A stretch of DNA of 64,000 bases from a bacterium (GTDB taxonomy: Bacteria > Patescibacteriota > Minisyncoccia > 2-02-FULL-40-12 > IGHO2-01-FULL-4-A), in contig JAUYLN010000019.1 in the NCBI GenBank assembly GCA_030698885.1, positions 62,001-126,000 of the forward strand, in the 5' to 3' direction. Under the pieces are notes generated by a model. It had not been told where the DNA came from and ran no database searches. It saw nothing but the letters and a program-made list of their open reading frames with translations. Below are positions 4,698 to 35,208 of this stretch, piece by piece. How positions within the stretch are numbered: the first letter of the stretch is position 1; every line of letters begins with the position of its first letter. The translations under genes were made by a program, and so were the position numbers.

Positions 4698-6872
<2,175 letters not shown>

Positions 6873-26233: not shown

Positions 26234-26780
26234 AGACTTTGGGTTTTCACTAATTGAAGTGCTGGTAGTTACTACCGTTATAGCCGTTGTGTCAACGGTT
26301 TTAATTTTAAATTTCAGACCATCTACCACCAATGAAGCATCCTTCAACAGAGCGGCTTCATTGGTGGTAGCTGATTTTCGTAAAACCCAGTCAGAGGCTT
26401 CTTCTTTGGTGTTATATGGGGGACAGCCGGCCTGTGGCTATGGCATTCATTACGTAGACAAATCTACTTATATAGTTTACGCCGGCCTAACATCCGGAGG
26501 CGCTTCTTGCGCCTCAAGCTCAAGAGGCTATCAGTCTTCCATTGATGCAACAGTGGAGACTAAAAAATTAATAAACGATAAGTTAGAATTTAGAAGCTCT
26601 TTTAAGGATATATTTTTTGAGCCTCCGGATCCAAAAACTTATCTCCAGAATGATGCCTCCCCGGGTGCCAATCCTGAAACTATTACTATAATAGAAAAAG
26701 GGGGCAACAACTGTACTCAGGCCAAATGTATATATATAGATATTTATACTTCGGGTAGAATAGAAATTAGAACCCAATAA
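26226..26780 (+). CDS. Minor prepilin, GspH-like
   Basis: Prepilin signal G|FSLIEVLVVTTVIAVVSTVLI near the N-terminus, then a helix and a C-terminal domain with a Cys pair (CGYGIHY ... CASSSRGY). 184 aa. Its ATG overlaps the stop of the upstream gene (ATGAATAG). Probably a minor pilin that primes pilus assembly. Confidence 0.85.
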   Translation: MNRDFGFSLIEVLVVTTVIAVVSTVLILNFRPSTTNEASFNRAASLVVADFRKTQSEASSLVLYGGQPACGYGIHYVDKSTYIVYAGLTSGGASCASSSRGYQSSIDATVETKKLINDKLEFRSSFKDIFFEPPDPKTYLQNDASPGANPETITIIEKGGNNCTQAKCIYIDIYTSGRIEIRTQ

Positions 26781-28518: not shown

Positions 28519-30564
28519 ATGGTAAAGCAGGAAGCGAAAAAACGCCTGGACAAGCTCAAAGGCCTCATCAATAAATACCGGCATAGCCGGCTTGTTTTAG
28601 ATAAAACCATAGCTGACGAACAGGTAGAAGATTCACTCAAAAAAGAGCTTTTTGATATTGAGCAGGAGTTTCCGGATTTGGTTACCTCTGATTCTCCAAG
28701 CCAAAGAGTAGGCGGTGAACCCCTGAGAGAATTTAAAAAAGTTAAACACCCAGAAAGAATGCTCTCTTTCAATGATGTTTTTAATAATAAAGACATTACT
28801 GATTGGGAAAACAGATTAAAGAGAATAGATCCAAGGGCTACCGAAGGAGGATTCTACTGCGAGCTCAAACTGGATGGTCTGGCCATAGAACTTATTTATG
28901 AAAATGGAGTTTTAAAAACAGGTGCAACTAGGGGAAACGGCACGGTCGGCGAAGACGTAACCCATAACTTAAAAACGATTGAAGCCATCCCACTGTCGTT
29001 ACCAGTTACCAGCCCCGACGCCTTTGGGTCGGGGTCCCGACAGAATCGTCGGGATTACCAGTTACCAGTTACCTTGGTCGTCCGAGGCGAAGTTTTTATT
29101 AATAAAAAAGACTTTGAAAAAATAAACAAAAGTCAGGACAAAGCTAACAATAAAATATACGCAAACCCAAGAAATCTCGCTGCCGGCTCAATAAGACAGC
29201 TGGACCCTAAGTTAACCGCTGAAAGGCACTTAGATTCATTCGCATATTCATTACTAACAGATTTAGGGCAAACAAAACATGAAGATGAACATGAGATACT
29301 TAAAAAAATAGGATTCAGAACAAATACCCACAATAAATTCTGTAAAAATCTAGAAGAAGTCCAAAAATTCAGAGACTACTGGGAGAAGCACCGCGAAAAA
29401 CTGCCGTATGAAATTGACGGTGTAGTGGTCATTGTGAACGACAATAGAATATTCAAGAAGCTGGGCATAGTCGGAAAAGCTCCGCGGGGAGCCGTGGCAT
29501 ACAAATTCTCTCCCAGACGCTCCACAACAACGATAAAAGATATCATCATCGGCGTAGGCCGAACGGGAACGCTTACTCCCGTGGCAGTCCTTGAGCCGGT
29601 TGAGATAGGAGGTACTATGGTGTCCCGGGCGACACTGCATAACGAAGATGAAATAAAGCGCCTTGGCATTAAAATAGGCGATACAGTGGTGGTAGAAAGG
29701 GCGGGGGACGTGATTCCTGATATCAAGCAAGTTTTAACGGAACTTCGCACAGGCAAAGAAAAGTCTTTTCATTTTCCTACTAAATGTCCGTCATGCAATG
29801 AACCCGTAAAAAGGCTTGAGGGCGAGGTGGCTTACAAATGCGTTAATAAAAATTGTCCTGCCATAAAAAGAGAGGGGATGTATCATTTTATTTCAAGGTC
29901 TGCGATGGATATGGATGGCATCGGCCCTAAAATAATTGACCAGCTTATGGATTCGGGCCTGATAAAAGACTCCGCCGATTTATACGGCTTAACCAAAGAA
30001 GACCTGCTTAACTTGGAAAGATTTGCCGAAAAATCAGCCGATAATGCTATCTCTGCTATCCAATCAAAAAAGACCGTGTCATTGGACAGATTTATTTATG
30101 CCCTTGGCATACCCCATGTCGGTTCTGAAACCGCGGTGGATTTAGCCAGAAAATTCGGCACCCTTGAAAAATTATCTAAAACCGATAAAGAAGAGCTGGA
30201 GGCTATCAAAGATATTGGAGCCACGGTGGCAGAAAGTATTTATGACTGGTTTAATAACGGCTATAATCAAAATCTTATTAAAAAGCTAAACTCTGCCGGC
30301 ATAAAAATCCTGAAGCAGGAGAGTTCGCAAAAATCTTCAAAGCTTAAGGGGATGACGTTTGTATTTACGGGTACCCTTGAAACTATCGCCCGCGAGCAAG
30401 GAGAGGAGATGGTCCGTGAACATGGGGGCGACACTTCATCATCAGTGTCTAAAGAAACTAGTTATGTTGTGGCGGGGGAGAATGCGGGGTCAAAGTTGGA
30501 TAAGGCAAATAAATTAGGAGTGAAAATTATTGATGAAAAGGAATTTTTGAAGATAGTTTCTTGA
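28519..30564 (+). CDS. ligA: NAD-dependent DNA ligase
   Basis: Seals nicks using NAD+. The domain Ia start, adenylation motif CELKLDGLAIEL (Lys ~117), OB fold, Cys4 zinc finger (CPSC ... CVNKNC, ~423-445), HhH repeats (AMDMDGIGPKIIDQL, ALGIPHVGSETA) and C-terminal BRCT (~604-681, GMTFVFTGTL) are all present. Residues ~159-184 (LPVTSPDAFGSGSRQNRRD) come from an inserted palindromic repeat that also occurs between genes. No Shine-Dalgarno site. Confidence 0.97.
   Translation: MVKQEAKKRLDKLKGLINKYRHSRLVLDKTIADEQVEDSLKKELFDIEQEFPDLVTSDSPSQRVGGEPLREFKKVKHPERMLSFNDVFNNKDITDWENRLKRIDPRATEGGFYCELKLDGLAIELIYENGVLKTGATRGNGTVGEDVTHNLKTIEAIPLSLPVTSPDAFGSGSRQNRRDYQLPVTLVVRGEVFINKKDFEKINKSQDKANNKIYANPRNLAAGSIRQLDPKLTAERHLDSFAYSLLTDLGQTKHEDEHEILKKIGFRTNTHNKFCKNLEEVQKFRDYWEKHREKLPYEIDGVVVIVNDNRIFKKLGIVGKAPRGAVAYKFSPRRSTTTIKDIIIGVGRTGTLTPVAVLEPVEIGGTMVSRATLHNEDEIKRLGIKIGDTVVVERAGDVIPDIKQVLTELRTGKEKSFHFPTKCPSCNEPVKRLEGEVAYKCVNKNCPAIKREGMYHFISRSAMDMDGIGPKIIDQLMDSGLIKDSADLYGLTKEDLLNLERFAEKSADNAISAIQSKKTVSLDRFIYALGIPHVGSETAVDLARKFGTLEKLSKTDKEELEAIKDIGATVAESIYDWFNNGYNQNLIKKLNSAGIKILKQESSQKSSKLKGMTFVFTGTLETIAREQGEEMVREHGGDTSSSVSKETSYVVAGENAGSKLDKANKLGVKIIDEKEFLKIVS
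29000..29072. repeat. Palindromic repeat inserted in frame in ligA
   Basis: TTACCAGTTACC units flank two hairpins, CCCCGAC/GTCGGGG and TCCCGAC/GTCGGGA. The same parts lie in the non-coding region 13869-13985. Confidence 0.8.
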
Positions 30565-30683
30565 TTATAATCAGTAAGCTTTTTACTGGCACGCCGTAAT
30601 TTTCTGGTGAAAATTCGCCTATATCTCGCTACGGTCTAGCTCCGATATGCCATTAAAAAGCTCACTGATTATAATTTTATTTT
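30563..30683 (+). terminator. Large terminator hairpin after ligA
   Basis: GATTATAATCAGT/ACTGATTATAAT plus AAGCTTTTTA/TAAAAAGCT form a ~120-nt stem-loop ending in TTTTATTTT. Confidence 0.7.
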
Positions 30684-30824
30684 CCGCTATTTCTTAGGAG
30701 AGAGGGGGAGGTGAGGAAATAGGATTGTCCCAACTCGTTGTGGTCGGAACCACTATGTGATCAAACGGCTAAACGACAACAGTCGTTGAGCCGTTTGATA
30801 TTGAAATCTCTAGGTCGTATATTC
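30684..30824. other. Gene-free spacer between ligA and the cassette operon terminator
   Basis: Contains an 18-bp hairpin near 30759-30799 (ATCAAACGGCTAAACGAC and its complement, AACA loop). No gene seen. Confidence 0.5.
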
Positions 30825-30866
30825 AAAAAAAAACACCCGCCAGAGGTCTTGCGACATGGCGGGGTT
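30825..30866 (-). terminator. Terminator of the cassette operon
   Basis: Read on the minus strand: CCCGCCA/TGGCGGG stem followed by TGTTTTTTTTT, ~50 nt after the last stop. This confirms minus-strand transcription of the array. Confidence 0.85.
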
Positions 30867-30915
30867 TCATCTTTAACGGTAGATGATGACCGGTTAGGGT
30901 TAGAGGAGAACTATA

Positions 30916-31431
30916 CTACCAGTTGGGCCTGGTGGGCCAGTAGGGCACCCACTCTGACTTTTCAGCCAGGTGAATGTAATCACACCCATTCTCCATCCAG
31001 TCGGCCCTGTGGGGACACTCCTCCGGCGAAGAGCATGTGTAACTATGCCCCGCCTGTTTGTAGATGAGCGTCCCTGGAGGCGTAATGTCTCTACACCCTC
31101 CCCTGACCCACAGATAGCCGGAGATCTCCCTGACCTCGACATTCTGCCCGGCCGGTGCCAAGGTCTTTCCCCGAGGAATCGCGAAAAACTCCTCATAGGT
31201 TGACCCGTGGCTGTCGTAGCCGGTAAAGACAGCTACCTGATAACCGTCTGGCGGTTCCGGTATGGGCGCCCCGGTGCAAAGTTCATTCCCGTACCTGTAG
31301 GTCGGGCGGGCTTGTGCCATAACTACGGCAACAAGACTCGCACGCGCCGACTTCTCGGTGGGATAGAACTCACCACTCACGGCGTTGCATGACTCACACC
31401 CTCCTACCGCAAAGCTAATTTCTGGAATCAT
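30916..31431 (-). CDS. Cassette operon gene 5, unknown protein
   Basis: A 171-aa soluble protein, the last of five cassette genes. It is rich in Cys (GGCESCNAVSG, GNELCTG, RGGCRDI, YTCSSPEECPHR, ENGCDYI) and aromatic residues, which suggests metal binding or disulfides. No signal peptide and no recognised family. The start MIPEIS (31431) is chosen because GGGAG lies just upstream; the frame stays open through the repeated leader to 31521, but those residues come from the repeat. Confidence 0.7.
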   Translation of the reverse strand: MIPEISFAVGGCESCNAVSGEFYPTEKSARASLVAVVMAQARPTYRYGNELCTGAPIPEPPDGYQVAVFTGYDSHGSTYEEFFAIPRGKTLAPAGQNVEVREISGYLWVRGGCRDITPPGTLIYKQAGHSYTCSSPEECPHRADWMENGCDYIHLAEKSEWVPYWPTRPNW

Positions 31432-31446
31432 CTCAATCTCCCTGTT

Positions 31447-31628
31447 CCACACCTGCCATTTCTGGTCAGGATTTACTGGAAACATAACTTTTCGAAATAA
31501 CTTTGGAATTGCTTCCACCAAAGTATTCTCTTTTGAAAATATTTTGGTGGAGGCCCGATCAAATTACGATCGGGCTTTTTAAGAACATACTTGCACCTCC
31601 TTTGTGTGGACCTCTTTACGGCTGGTCA
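31447..31628 (-). promoter_or_regulatory. Cassette leader repeat U1 (before gene 5)
   Basis: A full ~180-bp unit. In transcript order: CTGACCAG box, AAAGGAGGTG site, 9-codon minicistron (ATG 31588, stop 31559-31561), hairpin A (GCCCGATC/GATCGGGC), hairpin B (16-bp stem closed by CCACC/GGTGG with an AAAA loop), a conserved ATTCCAAAGTT tail, a second CTGACCAG box, and the gene's own SD. Confidence 0.85.
31559..31588 (-). CDS. Leader minicistron in U1 (9 codons)
   Basis: MFLKSPIVI followed by TGA, with the very strong AAAGGAGGTG site 5 nt upstream. Identical copies are in U3 and U4. The codons overlap hairpin A, so translation would unfold it. Whether it is translated is not shown. Confidence 0.5.
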   Translation of the reverse strand: MFLKSPIVI

Positions 31629-31639
31629 AGCCGCGCAGA

Positions 31640-32047
31640 TTATGCGGACTTGGCCATCGTGAGCAACCCCCTCTCCAAAGCCTCTTGGATTGAAGGACAA
31701 CCGTAGTCGACGGCGTATTGGCACATCATGATATTATTCATAACGTCCGATACAATCTTTTCGTCAGACCCTTCCACTATTACAGCAATGGTATCTGGCT
31801 TTCTGCCGTAATGACAGGTGTAATTTATTTCAACATTCACCCTGTCAGATTCAAGCTTATCTATCTGACTAAAACCAGAGCTTGCATCTCCGACGCAGTA
31901 TTCATTAGTGCTTCTGCACCTGGAGTAGAGGTGCCTTACAGCTTCCTCGGCAAGCAATTTTACCTGGGAAGAGAAGGAGGCAGTTCCATTCAGACCTTTC
32001 ATGGTCTTTGTCTTTTTCGTGCTAGCAACGATGATCGTCTTTTCCAT
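31640..32047 (-). CDS. Cassette operon gene 4, unknown protein
   Basis: A 135-aa soluble protein from MEKTIIVAS (32047), with GAGGGG just upstream. It shows a mixed alpha/beta pattern and several Cys (RCRSTNEYC, NYTCHYG, MMCQYAVDYGC). No family recognised. It stops with TAA 15 bp before the next leader repeat. Confidence 0.7.
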   Translation of the reverse strand: MEKTIIVASTKKTKTMKGLNGTASFSSQVKLLAEEAVRHLYSRCRSTNEYCVGDASSGFSQIDKLESDRVNVEINYTCHYGRKPDTIAVIVEGSDEKIVSDVMNNIMMCQYAVDYGCPSIQEALERGLLTMAKSA

Positions 32048-32061
32048 TTTGAACCCCTCAT

Positions 32062-32187
32062 CCACACCTGCCATTTCTGGTCAGGATTTACTGGAAAATA
32101 ACTTTTCTTGAAAAGAACTTTGGAATTACTTCCACCAAAGTATTCTCTTTTGAAAATATTTTGGTGGAGGCCGAACTTTCGTTCGGC
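32062..32187 (-). promoter_or_regulatory. Cassette leader repeat U2 (before gene 4), variant
   Basis: Hairpin B and the downstream tail match U1/U3. The upstream part is different: no minicistron, and hairpin A is replaced by GCCGAAC/GTTCGGC with a GAAA loop at the same place. This is sequence change with structure kept. Confidence 0.8.
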
Positions 32188-32214
32188 ACCTGCGTGGCAG
32201 GATTTTGAAATGTA

Positions 32215-32691
32215 CTAGGATTTCTTGGGGTGAGATGGCGACCCCAGGGGAGTCAGGGGCCTAATAGTACTGGTTGGTATGCCCGGACTCGCCAAAGTTT
32301 GAGTGACTTCTGATTCGGAAAGTGTAGACGAATCACTGCGCTTCGTCTCTATCCTTGGAGTGTTAGCGAGCAGAAGAGTTTTCGCCCTTTTTGCCCACGC
32401 CTCCAGTTCGGCCCTGCGGACGCTGTAGATTGTCCACTTATTGTAACTGTAAGGGTCCACGTATTTTCTCGAGAACACGCTTACTGTCTCGGGACGGGCA
32501 TTTCGAATCGCCTCTCTTTTTTCTACCGTCATGTATCCAAGGTATCGACGGAGAACGTAGTCAAGGCGCGCGTATTCACGCTTGCCGTTGTGATCAAACA
32601 CAACATGCATGCGGATGACCCACGGCGTTTCTCCATAACCGTTGGTCCACTCCTTACTTTCCTCCACATCAATAACCTTTGCGGTAATCAT
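32215..32691 (-). CDS. Cassette operon gene 3, unknown protein
   Basis: A 158-aa protein starting MITAKVIDVEES (32691) after GGGGAGATTCGAG. The first ~110 residues are an alpha/beta domain with many charged residues and Tyr/Arg (YARLDYVLRRYLGYMTVEKRE). The last ~40 are Ser/Thr/Pro-rich and probably disordered (SPGIPTSTIRPLTPLGSPS). No family recognised. Confidence 0.7.
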   Translation of the reverse strand: MITAKVIDVEESKEWTNGYGETPWVIRMHVVFDHNGKREYARLDYVLRRYLGYMTVEKREAIRNARPETVSVFSRKYVDPYSYNKWTIYSVRRAELEAWAKRAKTLLLANTPRIETKRSDSSTLSESEVTQTLASPGIPTSTIRPLTPLGSPSHPKKS

Positions 32692-32709
32692 CTCTCGAAT
32701 CTCCCCATT

Positions 32710-32893
32710 CCACACCTGCCATTTCTGGTCAGGATTTACTGGAAAATAACTTTTCTTGAAAAGAACTTTGGAATTTCTCCCACCAAAGTATTCTCTTTTG
32801 AAAATATTTTGGTGGAGGCCCGATCAAATTACGATCGGGCTTTTTAAGAACATACTTGCACCTCCTTTGTGTGGACCTCTTTACGGCTGGTCA
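32710..32893 (-). promoter_or_regulatory. Cassette leader repeat U3 (before gene 3)
   Basis: A full unit, nearly identical to U1, with minicistron ATG at 32853 and stop at 32824-32826. The TGA stop of upstream gene 2 (32891-32893) lies within the CTGACCAG box at the unit's edge. Confidence 0.85.
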
Positions 32894-33244
32894 GGCTGTT
32901 TGCCACTCTGGAGGTTTGACACTCCCGTGGCTGATTCGTGCGCAGTCCGAGGAAATGAGTCGGAACTTTTCCTCATACTCTTCCGACTTCACCCCACACT
33001 TCTCCAAAAGGGCTAGGCTGGAAGCGTACTCTGCATGCTTCTGTCTTAGGATACTCAACTGCTGATTCATCGGCCCCAAGACACTCGCTGTCGGACACAT
33101 GTTTTCCAGCACGGCTTTAGCAGCTTCCACCCCCTTGAGCTCGCGCTGAACGATGCTCTGGTGGTGCTGGTTCTTCTTGATGTAGAGAATAGCTTTCAGC
33201 ACTTTGACAAGTCCTTCGGCGTACATAACTTGAGCGATGAACAT
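32891..33244 (-). CDS. Cassette operon gene 2, unknown protein
   Basis: A 117-aa, mainly helical protein (KVLKAILYIKKNQHHQSIVQ, NQQLSILRQKHAEYASSLALLEKCG), possibly a four-helix bundle. The start MFIAQVMYAEG (33244) follows GAGGAGATTCGAATT. Its stop codon is supplied by the leader repeat. No family recognised. Confidence 0.7.
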   Translation of the reverse strand: MFIAQVMYAEGLVKVLKAILYIKKNQHHQSIVQRELKGVEAAKAVLENMCPTASVLGPMNQQLSILRQKHAEYASSLALLEKCGVKSEEYEEKFRLISSDCARISHGSVKPPEWQTA

Positions 33245-33275
33245 AATTCGAATCTCCTCTTCTGAGTTCACTTGT

Positions 33276-33415
33276 GATATTGAAAGAACTTGGAATTTCT
33301 CCCACCAAAGTATTCTCTTTTGAAAATATTTTGGTGGAGGCCCGATCAAATTACGATCGGGCTTTTTAAGAACATACTTGCACCTCCTTTAGGTGGACCT
33401 CTTTACGGCTGGTCA
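33276..33415 (-). promoter_or_regulatory. Cassette leader repeat U4 (before gene 2)
   Basis: Minicistron (33346-33375), hairpin A and hairpin B as in U1/U3. Its downstream tail ends TTCTTTCAATATC instead of the longer U1-U3 tail, a feature shared only with U5. Gene 1's TGA lies in its edge box. Confidence 0.85.
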
Positions 33416-33718
33416 GGCCGACGCAATCTGCTGCGTGAGGAATTGTTGGGCCTCAGCAATAGCCCCCTCTATCAACTCCTTTATGGTATCGGCAAACATA
33501 TAGCCGAGAAAGATGCCTCTGTTTTCTGCCTCTTTGCTGGAGATGCCAAACGGGTATCTTTCTTTAGGTATCGTCAGGGGGGCAGAATAGGTGTAAAGCA
33601 CAGCAATGCCGCTTCCCGGCTTATACACCTCTGCCTTGAAAGTACAGAAATCTTCAACTCTTTCTTCCCACACCACTATGCTTAAGTAGACATCGAATCC
33701 GTCTTTTTCAATTTTCAT
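33413..33718 (-). CDS. Cassette operon gene 1, unknown protein
   Basis: A 101-aa protein, promoter-proximal. A beta-rich N-terminal half (YLSIVVWEERVEDFCTFKAEVY) and a helical end (FADTIKELIEGAIAEAQQFLTQ) suggest a small alpha+beta fold. The start is MKIEKDGFDV (33718) with AAGAGG upstream; the longer frame to 33793 covers leader sequence. No family recognised. Confidence 0.7.
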   Translation of the reverse strand: MKIEKDGFDVYLSIVVWEERVEDFCTFKAEVYKPGSGIAVLYTYSAPLTIPKERYPFGISSKEAENRGIFLGYMFADTIKELIEGAIAEAQQFLTQQIASA

Positions 33719-33749
33719 AGAAACCTCTTTGCGTATCATGCTCGCCAGC

Positions 33750-33831
33750 GATATTGAAAAGAACTTTGGAATTACTTCCACCGGAACATTCAAATCTTGA
33801 ATACTCTGGTGGAAGGGGATTTGATACTCCC
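33750..33831 (-). promoter_or_regulatory. Cassette leader U5 in the operon's 5' UTR
   Basis: Hairpin A position is held by GGGA/TCCC. Hairpin B is again a 16-bp stem closed by CCACC/GGTGG but with different paired bases (ends TTCAA/TTGAA) and a 3-nt loop. The tail TTCTTTTCAATATC matches U4. Confidence 0.8.
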
Positions 33832-33849
33832 TTTTCTAATTATGTTATA

Positions 33850-33878
33850 AGTATAGCATAAAATAGGTGTTAAGTCAA
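33850..33878 (-). promoter_or_regulatory. Promoter of the cassette operon
   Basis: On the minus strand: TTGACT, 17-nt spacer, TATACT preceded by TGC (extended -10). The predicted start is near 33843, giving a ~125-nt 5' UTR that contains U5. Confidence 0.85.
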
Positions 33879-33913
33879 GATGCCGAAAAACAAGGATTTT
33901 ATAAGCAAACTTG

Positions 33914-33960
33914 GCCCAAAAGAACGCCTAAATCACTGATTTAGGCGTTCTTTTGGGCTT
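33914..33960. terminator. Perfect 22-bp palindromic hairpin
   Basis: GCCCAAAAGAACGCCTAAAT and its complement form a perfect stem with TCA/TGA at the tip. No strong T-run on either side. It insulates the cassette operon from the upstream gene. Confidence 0.6.
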
Positions 33961-34025
33961 GGATATTCCATCTCCAAGCTCAAAGAGAAGGCCTGGAGAC
34001 AACAAATTCCACAAAAGGTGTGGGA

Positions 34026-34056
34026 TAAAAAAACCAGCCCCGTTTGACGGGGCTGG
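34026..34056 (-). terminator. Terminator of the 34805 gene
   Basis: On the minus strand: CCAGCCCC/GGGGCTGG followed by seven T. Confidence 0.85.
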
Positions 34057-34079
34057 AGCCTCGTTTGACGGGGCCGTTT

Positions 34080-34805
34080 CTACTTGTTTTTAAAAAGCTT
34101 ACCAAGATTGCTTAAATCAGGATGCTTATAGGTTCCGTCTACCATCTTGAAAACTCTTTTATCAACAAAAAACTTGTTTATAATCTCTCTTAAATTGCTC
34201 CATCGCCAAATATCGGGCAGGCCGTCTTTATGATTAAGGTTAGACCTTACCAATCTTCCCTCGTGCTGAAAAAGAGTTACGAATTTCTCGTCGGGCGGAG
34301 TTTTTACCGCATACTCTGAAAAACCGCATACGATACATAATCTGCGCCCATAATACCAGTCGTCGCGATCATAAGAATAGGAACCCTCGTATCCGGAGTG
34401 ACCGAATACAAACGGGTGAAGGCATATCTTCTGAAAGTCCTTCTTTAGGCTGTCTATTTCTCCCTTAAGTTCTCCCAGCTTTTTCACGCTTATATTCTCG
34501 TCGTTGCTGTCGGCAATTTTTTGAATTATCATCTTGCGTAACCTCATGACTTCTTTTGAAGGCTCTCTGCGCGCCAAGAGAGCTTCCTTAAAAAGAGATA
34601 TCTTTAATGTTGCATCATTTTTCTCATTATCTAATTTTTTCTGTTGTTCATTTAACACCCGGACTTGCTTATTTATTTCTGCCTGTTCTTCTGCTATATT
34701 TTTCATTTTTAATTCCGCTTCTTCTATATTTTTTGTTAATGTGCCCATCTTAATATCTTCAATTCTTTCTTGAATCTCCTGCTCTTGAGCTTGAGCTGGC
34801 TGCAT
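34080..34805 (-). CDS. Coiled-coil protein with a C-terminal Cys/His domain, unknown
   Basis: 241 aa. Residues ~10-125 form a long coiled coil (EEAELKMKNIAEEQAEINKQ). Residues ~127-165 hold CLHPFVFGHSG ... LCIVCGFSE, a likely zinc-binding Cys/His set, with an aromatic Tyr/Asp-rich loop between. No signal peptide. GGAAGGAG upstream gives a strong ribosome-binding site, as in the cassette genes, but it has its own terminator. Confidence 0.65.
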   Translation of the reverse strand: MQPAQAQEQEIQERIEDIKMGTLTKNIEEAELKMKNIAEEQAEINKQVRVLNEQQKKLDNEKNDATLKISLFKEALLARREPSKEVMRLRKMIIQKIADSNDENISVKKLGELKGEIDSLKKDFQKICLHPFVFGHSGYEGSYSYDRDDWYYGRRLCIVCGFSEYAVKTPPDEKFVTLFQHEGRLVRSNLNHKDGLPDIWRWSNLREIINKFFVDKRVFKMVDGTYKHPDLSNLGKLFKNK

Positions 34806-34863
34806 CGCGTATTTCTCCTTCCAATAATATACCCACTAGCCAAGGCTAAGGCAAGCTCACCGC

Positions 34864-34893
34864 TTGGAATCTTTGGATTTTTTGTGCTAATTT
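34864..34893 (+). promoter_or_regulatory. Promoter of gatC, leaderless
   Basis: TTGGAA, 18-nt spacer, extended TGC-TAATTT, then exactly 6 nt to the ATG. Confidence 0.65.
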
Positions 34894-34899
34894 AAGCTT

Positions 34900-35208
34900 A
34901 TGGTAGACATCACAAAAACAACCGTTAACACCATCGCCAATCTCGCCAGAATTGAACTGACTGAAAAGGAGGAAGAAAAAATGGCCAAAGAACTTGGGTC
35001 AATTTTAAGCTATATTGATAAACTAAAGGAAGTGGACACGTCAAACGTAGAAGCAGACGCGAGCCCGCATCATGGTCTGATTAATCATCTGCGAAAAGAT
35101 GATAAGTCCAGCCACAATGCCGGCGACAACACAGAAAAATTACTGGCTCAAGCCCCCGAAACAAAAGACGGCTTCGTTAAAGTTCCGAGTATTTTAGAAA
35201 AAAAATGA
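34900..35208 (+). CDS. gatC: Asp-tRNA(Asn)/Glu-tRNA(Gln) amidotransferase subunit C
   Basis: A 102-aa subunit of GatCAB, which converts misacylated Glu-tRNA(Gln) or Asp-tRNA(Asn). Typical VNTIANLARIELTEKEEEKM and ILSYIDKLKEVDTSNVE motifs. It overlaps gatA by 4 bp (ATGA). gatB is not in the window. Confidence 0.93.
   Translation: MVDITKTTVNTIANLARIELTEKEEEKMAKELGSILSYIDKLKEVDTSNVEADASPHHGLINHLRKDDKSSHNAGDNTEKLLAQAPETKDGFVKVPSILEKK

Follow-up and report, generated by a model that had tools for sequence, protein, structure and literature searches.

A covarying double hairpin before each gene of an orphan-gene array, a candidate punctuation element of the polycistronic message

Why should five small genes without recognisable relatives each be preceded by the same pair of hairpins? 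This question is raised by a 64,000-nucleotide stretch of patescibacterial DNA, hereafter the window, which lies in a 957-kb draft genome (G000, contig C6:62001-126000). Between ligA and gatC it carries five adjacent hairpin pairs, hairpin A and then hairpin B, all on the minus strand and one before each of five orphan genes. A short boxA-like motif, in one case a variant of it, follows each pair. The units are numbered U1 to U5, with U5 nearest to the predicted promoter:

33815..33831, minus strand: U5 hairpin A (GGGA/TCCC), starting about 10 nucleotides past the predicted transcription start
33776..33814, minus strand: U5 hairpin B, a diverged copy with pairing kept
33758..33764, minus strand: U5 boxA-like motif GTTCTTT
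33340..33362, minus strand: U4 hairpin A (GCCCGATC/GATCGGGC)
33300..33339, minus strand: U4 hairpin B
33283..33289, minus strand: U4 boxA-like motif GTTCTTT
32818..32840, minus strand: U3 hairpin A (GCCCGATC/GATCGGGC)
32778..32817, minus strand: U3 hairpin B
32760..32766, minus strand: U3 boxA-like motif GTTCTTT
32170..32187, minus strand: U2 hairpin A (GCCGAAC/GTTCGGC)
32130..32169, minus strand: U2 hairpin B
32112..32118, minus strand: U2 boxA-like motif GTTCTTT
31553..31575, minus strand: U1 hairpin A (GCCCGATC/GATCGGGC)
31513..31552, minus strand: U1 hairpin B
31495..31501, minus strand: U1 motif variant GTTATTT

The original prediction had set a hairpin A just 5' of each hairpin B, and its placement and sequences hold for all five units, which are on the minus strand. 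It had also given hairpin B a 16-bp stem throughout. That is correct for U1 to U4, where the 16-pair stem includes one A-C mismatch, but U5 has 18 pairs; the altered pairs of U5, with pairing kept and a different loop, are as described. A 137-nucleotide repeat of 93-100% identity makes U1, U3 and U4 near copies of one another, so that within the window only hairpin A of U2 and the diverged U5 are informative on covariation. Such near identity is what neutral hairpins spread by recent copying would show, and deciding between copying and conserved structure depends on relatives of the element.

Most matches of a blastn search against 58 relatives were short and chance-like; three were convincing and lie in another family (G044, G019, G035). 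These three seeded a model, and nine aligned units (A3) yielded covariance model R1. Of 45 genomes from the order, R1 matched 13 at E<=0.01. In the window's own genome, at the same threshold, R1 matches only the five units and their antisense shadows, and a weaker match at 26316-26391 lies inside another open reading frame (ORF). Model R2, built from 33 units, was run on 383 genomes of the class and matched 41 of them at E<=1e-4; 9 of these had supplied training units. In a sample of the phylum 9 of 379 genomes were matched, 4 of these from the class again. Five genomes outside the class were matched at E<=1e-4, one of which (G556) has A and B with GTTCTTT 5 nucleotides later, while the other four matches are ambiguous. 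A pattern scan of named genomes places the element in Candidatus Yanofskybacteria, Kaiserbacteria and Zambryskibacteria and in one Patescibacteria metagenome-assembled genome. The collection comes to 92 units that do not overlap, from 35 stretches of genomes of the Paceibacteria class. Two of 11 pattern matches (Akkermansiaceae L071 and Saprospiraceae L074) were dropped, as they lack hairpin A and were not matched by the model. The weak palindromes of G001 (L065), G023 and G020:C7 are unlike A and B and were not counted. In a viral collection the DNA pattern occurs in a single stretch, inside a long ORF and lacking hairpin A, and thus provides no evidence for phages.

Across these relatives hairpin A has the consensus GGCCGA...TCGGCC, with a median of 8 pairs, and hairpin B reads CUCCCACCAAAGUUUU, a variable tip, then GAAGAUUUUGGUGGGAG (quartiles 17, 18 and 24 pairs). 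There is no spacer (0 nucleotides) between the two in 90 of the 92 units. The paired positions change together. In the nine units aligned first, two-sided changes occur at 11 of 24 pairs, where shuffles give 6.4±1.4 (0/500 as high). Among the 33 training units the figure rises to 19 of 24 pairs and 109 two-sided cells (shuffles 26.8±4.1, again 0/500; slid controls at most 22 cells). The 59 units that took no part in training show two-sided changes with pairing kept at 23 of 24 pairs, with 296 cells against 88.7±8.1 in shuffles. In the fitted alignment the non-Watson-Crick pairs are G.U in 258 cases and C.A in 52, an excess which argues that the gene-sense strand is the one that folds. Units share a single orientation within all 35 loci, of which 27 hold more than one unit. 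A folding test is independent of the model fit: at 24 sites that carry the downstream motif without a model match, the RNA upstream folds with a median z of -3.25, compared with -0.26 in 57 control leaders (p 8e-8).

We consider it well supported by these results that the unit acts at the RNA level, as part of each gene's leader. The earlier claim of structure conserved over sequence, here on the transcript strand and in gene leaders, is strengthened by the larger alignment, and the covariance search it had proposed retrieved homologues that differ in their DNA, rather than identical copies. Barring an alignment artefact, neutral copying is refuted, because covariation and a conserved motif are seen across families, and we give it next to no chance. 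No Rfam family was found for the element: an Rfam 15 search of the whole window at gathering score returned only tRNAs and nothing matching A and B, and when the threshold was relaxed to E<=5 for the array region, the matches were chance-like only. In open-access literature, a coverage that excludes most subscription journals and all preprints, we found no description of it.

What might such a leader do? One answer is offered by an optional third helix. Each unit runs in the order A, B, optional helix C, GUUCUUU, Shine-Dalgarno site and gene. Helix C pairs GGGAG at the end of B with a segment just before the motif, and therefore shares the base of B; helix C and the lowest pairs of B are mutually exclusive. 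In 35 units its mean energy is -7.33 kcal/mol, compared with -5.32±0.30 kcal/mol when partners are permuted between units (0/2000), and in 12 long-range cases it is -11.67 against -8.79±0.81 (0/2000). A leader that controls translation, perhaps by sensing a ligand, could exploit this competition for GGGAG to switch access to the start region. The permutation result and the strong Shine-Dalgarno downstream of about half of the units agree with such a switch. That said, helix C is missing in some ten units where the motif directly follows B, the genes downstream are unrelated, contrary to a common ligand, and no conserved unpaired pocket is seen in the alignment. Translational or ligand-sensing control is, in our view, improbable.

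GTTCTTT occurs within 160 nucleotides after B in 46 of 92 units, while mononucleotide shuffles give a mean of 0.9 and a maximum of 5; in the window four of five units have it exactly. The collected arrays contain 75 sense and 8 antisense copies in 68.7 kb, and the DNA outside arrays holds 135, counting both strands, in 358 kb. A strong Shine-Dalgarno with an ATG or GTG start lies within 220 nucleotides of 46 of 92 units in the sense direction and of 3 in antisense, and a Shine-Dalgarno-like site precedes the ATG of every cassette gene in the window. Is the motif merely a U-rich tract which, behind hairpin B or C, ends or pauses transcription before each gene as an intrinsic attenuator? The ten or so units with GUUCUUU directly behind B (a gap of at most 4 nucleotides) have that appearance. 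However, single-base variants of the heptamer are all rare and every base is specific, including G1 and C4, so the motif is not simply a run of U, and in most units it is separated from B by 8 nucleotides or more, up to about 150. The attenuator has only a very slight chance of being right.

Beside these signals we note a side observation. Behind a perfect Shine-Dalgarno (AAAGGAGGTG), U1, U3 and U4 each have a short ORF of nine codons (MFLKSPIVI) that starts with ATG and stops within hairpin A (31559-31588, 32824-32853 and 33346-33375, minus strand). It may be the remnant of a truncated cassette gene, in three copies.

A further comparison comes from self-cleaving RNA. In genome G332, at L115:3509-3562, a type III hammerhead lies directly before GUUCUUU (RF00008, 39.1 bits, E 2.1e-7; curated cut-off 48.5). 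Its alignment contains the CUGAUGA...GAAA core and three stems, and the core is also found by pattern in most of the other hammerhead loci. Searching the 383 class genomes with RF00008 at E<=0.001 gave 19 matches in 17 genomes (L154-L172 among the hammerhead loci), and in 9 of 19 loci an exact GTTCTTT follows the core within 15 nucleotides. Further hammerheads were found by pattern in L081 (Zambryskibacteria, about 6330-6410) and on the minus strand of L128; in L128 the exact motif does not follow. Some Paceibacteria hammerheads sit before a Shine-Dalgarno. Hammerhead and R2 matches occur together in L160, L162, L163, L159 and L154, the R2 matches of the last three being weak. The type III hammerhead thus fills the slot of the array unit before GUUCUUU in some arrays of the class, whereas A and B themselves contain no core of this kind and, in the window, match nothing in Rfam. 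This exchange favours cutting, or formation of a 5' end, as the function of the slot. Among the three roles named in the original prediction, translation control, mRNA stability and a processing site, it shifts the weight to processing or a 5'-end-forming role. To our knowledge the bacterial roles of natural hammerhead ribozymes are mostly unclear; within the open-access coverage described above we found no paper that connects them with the Candidate Phyla Radiation or with Parcubacteria/Patescibacteria.

The motif raises a further possibility. GUUCUUU matches the core of boxA, the first seven letters of the consensus GYTCTTTAANA given in PMC5725501, which also reports boxA upstream of single mRNAs (suhB); where the full 11-mer continues, the units are only A-rich. 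The hairpin-then-boxA order is that of rrn leaders (PMC10250234), where a stem-loop precedes boxA. Likewise, the putRNA of phage HK022 (PMC9378689) has about 70 nucleotides and two stem-loops, and our units are of similar length, with two adjacent stem-loops and one copy just past a promoter; this likeness is one of layout and length. Could A and B, the boxA-like site, or both modify RNA polymerase for read-through of the array, with no cutting needed? The adjacency of the stem-loops in nearly all units, the position of U5 directly after the promoter and the presence of NusB in 24 of 25 genomes are consistent with antitermination of this kind. We reject an anti-Rho function as the main role: the Rho RNA-binding domain was found in 0 of 25 genomes, compared with 9 of 14 control genomes, so the classical task would be absent. 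A site before every gene also exceeds what read-through needs, and the hammerhead exchange is left unexplained. We hold pure antitermination to be rather unlikely. The units differ from rrn and nut sites in being repeated before each gene as two covarying hairpins of fixed design, in hosts in which no Rho was found (25 genomes), and in that the rRNA leader of G000 lacks the exact motif; and unlike HK022 put, they stand before every gene, are followed by a boxA-like motif and lie on a bacterial chromosome rather than in a lambdoid phage.

The reading that we tentatively favour, giving it slightly less than an even chance, is that A and B with the boxA-like site form an mRNA-leader punctuation element of a polycistronic message, a processing module before each gene. 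It is preferred over pure antitermination on the hammerhead exchange, which points to cutting or to formation of a 5' end. On this proposal the structured 5' module, made of the stacked hairpins A and B and often helix C, would precede the boxA-like GUUCUUU, the Shine-Dalgarno and the ORF. It would fold while RNA polymerase passes, and the message would be cut at or beside it, either by RNase III, with the long helix B as its substrate, or, in slots filled by a hammerhead, by the ribozyme itself. Every small gene would obtain a separate mRNA whose 5' end is structured and protected, and the boxA-like site would bind NusB-S10 as in rRNA leaders. Structure, strand, position, the motif, the hammerhead exchange and the gene content of the genomes are observed; cleavage at A and B, protein binding at GUUCUUU and an effect on expression are what we infer. 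The candidate factors are present: RNase III was found in 23 of 25 genomes, and in all 23 that have both, one contig carries its gene and that of NusB, no more than about 0.7 kb apart.

RNase III processing hairpins occur between genes in the early mRNAs of phage T7. Our units also place a long helix between genes of a polycistronic message; unlike the T7 hairpins they are stacked double hairpins with conserved G.U pairs, and cleavage is here a prediction.

Several results weigh against the processing module. The pair counts come from model-fitted alignments of model-selected sequences, under a model that rewards pairing, and the shuffle nulls leave shared descent in the covariation counts. 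The exact heptamer is not present within 160 nucleotides in 46 of 92 units. No hammerhead in the 383 class genomes exceeds the Rfam cut-off (best 46.4 against 48.5 bits). G332 has units and no RNase III match, an argument against RNase III being the sole cutter. The window genome's rRNA leader carries GAACTTTCAAAA and no exact GTTCTTT, and 19 rRNA leaders match the motif weakly (mean shuffle fraction 0.21, two near 0.01); the identity of the motif as boxA is thereby not proven. We had expected the rRNA leader of this genome to share the boxA of the units, which was not borne out.

As a separate observation, among the rRNA leaders L134 and L136-L153 several have a strong hairpin, with a T-run after it in some cases, and behind this a motif variant, GTTCCTTGAAAA or GATCTTTGACAA for example. 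The rRNA leaders of the class may have their own boxA consensus.

If the processing module is real, what does it serve? The genes behind it have little in common. The five cassette ORFs of the window have no Pfam match at E<=1 and no homologue among the ORFs of the other collected loci. Across the collection, 14 of 64 cassette ORFs have a match in another locus and 50 have none. In a scan of 58 downstream proteins few matched any library; the matches were to 5 Pfam families, 8 PHROGs, 27 NCBIfam and 4 PADLOC models, each in one member. One of the 58 matches the NCBIfam model of the TIGR-Tas RNA-guided endonuclease (E 5e-42); judging by length, it is probably the protein encoded downstream of a unit at L129:6342-7433 (minus strand).

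Conserved leaders before unrelated genes also recall integrons, and the hairpins might be single-stranded DNA substrates for recombination, with the variable tip of B as the counterpart of the terminal structure of attC. The sites are similarly imperfect, variable-tipped and placed between unrelated small genes, the array appears as an insertion between ligA and gatC, and G.T also forms in single-stranded DNA, so that the strand asymmetry alone is compatible with this idea. Integron attC sites have the core boxes RYYYAAC / GTTRRRY at the base of the stem. Unlike these, our hairpins have a conserved stem base CUCCCACC/GGUGGGAG; they stand 5' of genes after a promoter, and the six ORFs of the island, the only ones scanned for it, include no Pfam recombinase. 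The coupling to Shine-Dalgarno sites, the promoter placement and the hammerhead exchange fit RNA better. We regard an attC-like site as highly improbable.

Our best reading of the host arrays is that these sets of orphan genes were horizontally acquired. A broader picture, possible but doubtful, is of a mobile expression system for orphan genes in Rho-less Paceibacteria, in which a constant RNA tag, either the double hairpin or a hammerhead together with the boxA-like site, would let any captured gene be expressed as its own mRNA, and the double hairpin would be a new RNA class interchangeable with a self-cleaving ribozyme. The RNA signature of the element makes it possible to search for arrays of unknown genes in an uncultured bacterial group that is among the largest and consists of ultra-small cells, and the element offers a handle on how long transcripts are organised in bacteria where no Rho was found. 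If the processing module is confirmed, NusB and boxA would act on mRNAs in these bacteria, and hammerheads would gain a definite slot and a testable role, namely cutting polycistronic messages just before a boxA-like site.

The genomic setting extends the picture beyond the original prediction, which had covered neither GUUCUUU and helix C nor the promoter, the terminator and the insertion between ligA and gatC. In the window ligA ends at 30564 and gatC starts at 34900, with five minus-strand ORFs between them (101, 117, 158, 135 and 171 amino acids):

33850..33878, minus strand: sigma70-type promoter, TTGACT-17 nt-TATACT with TG before the -10, from promoter scan and sequence
33413..33718, minus strand: cassette gene 5, orphan ORF of 101 amino acids
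32891..33244, minus strand: cassette gene 4, orphan ORF of 117 amino acids
32215..32691, minus strand: cassette gene 3, orphan ORF of 158 amino acids
31640..32047, minus strand: cassette gene 2, orphan ORF of 135 amino acids
30916..31431, minus strand: cassette gene 1, orphan ORF of 171 amino acids
30825..30863, minus strand: intrinsic-terminator-like hairpin CCCGCCA...TGGCGGG, then TG and nine T, read from the sequence
30565..34899, no strand assigned: array-bearing stretch from ligA to gatC, missing or far shorter in seven relatives of the family

The terminator-like hairpin was identified by eye, its loop exceeding the limit of the terminator scan, and looks like the end of the array's transcription unit. 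The GC content of 30865-33850 is 47.9%, against 42.3% for the entire window. In all seven same-family relatives ligA and gatC are neighbours, about 5 to 70 nucleotides apart in five and about 0.8 kb in two, which implies that the array was either inserted in the window genome or lost in the relatives; none of the seven has an R2 match at E<=1e-4. We had expected a promoter before the first unit of every locus, but a promoter score of at least 10 was seen there in just 2 of the 35 loci, and most retrieved stretches therefore either start inside longer arrays or have different promoters.

Three minor observations concern the borders of arrays. The arrays of three genomes, of which two are recorded as Yanofskybacteria, follow a gene in the same orientation whose product looks like a TrmB-type regulator, a label based on sequence appearance (L025:4800-5555, L026:16247-17005 and L027:12333-13079). 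Just upstream of the array promoter in the window is a perfect 22-bp inverted repeat with a 1-nucleotide loop, containing GTTCTTTTGGGC (33914-33958). Positions 30564-30675, immediately behind ligA where the insertion has its left border, hold a 28-bp inverted repeat (93%) whose arms are 56 nucleotides apart; it may be a trace of the array's arrival.

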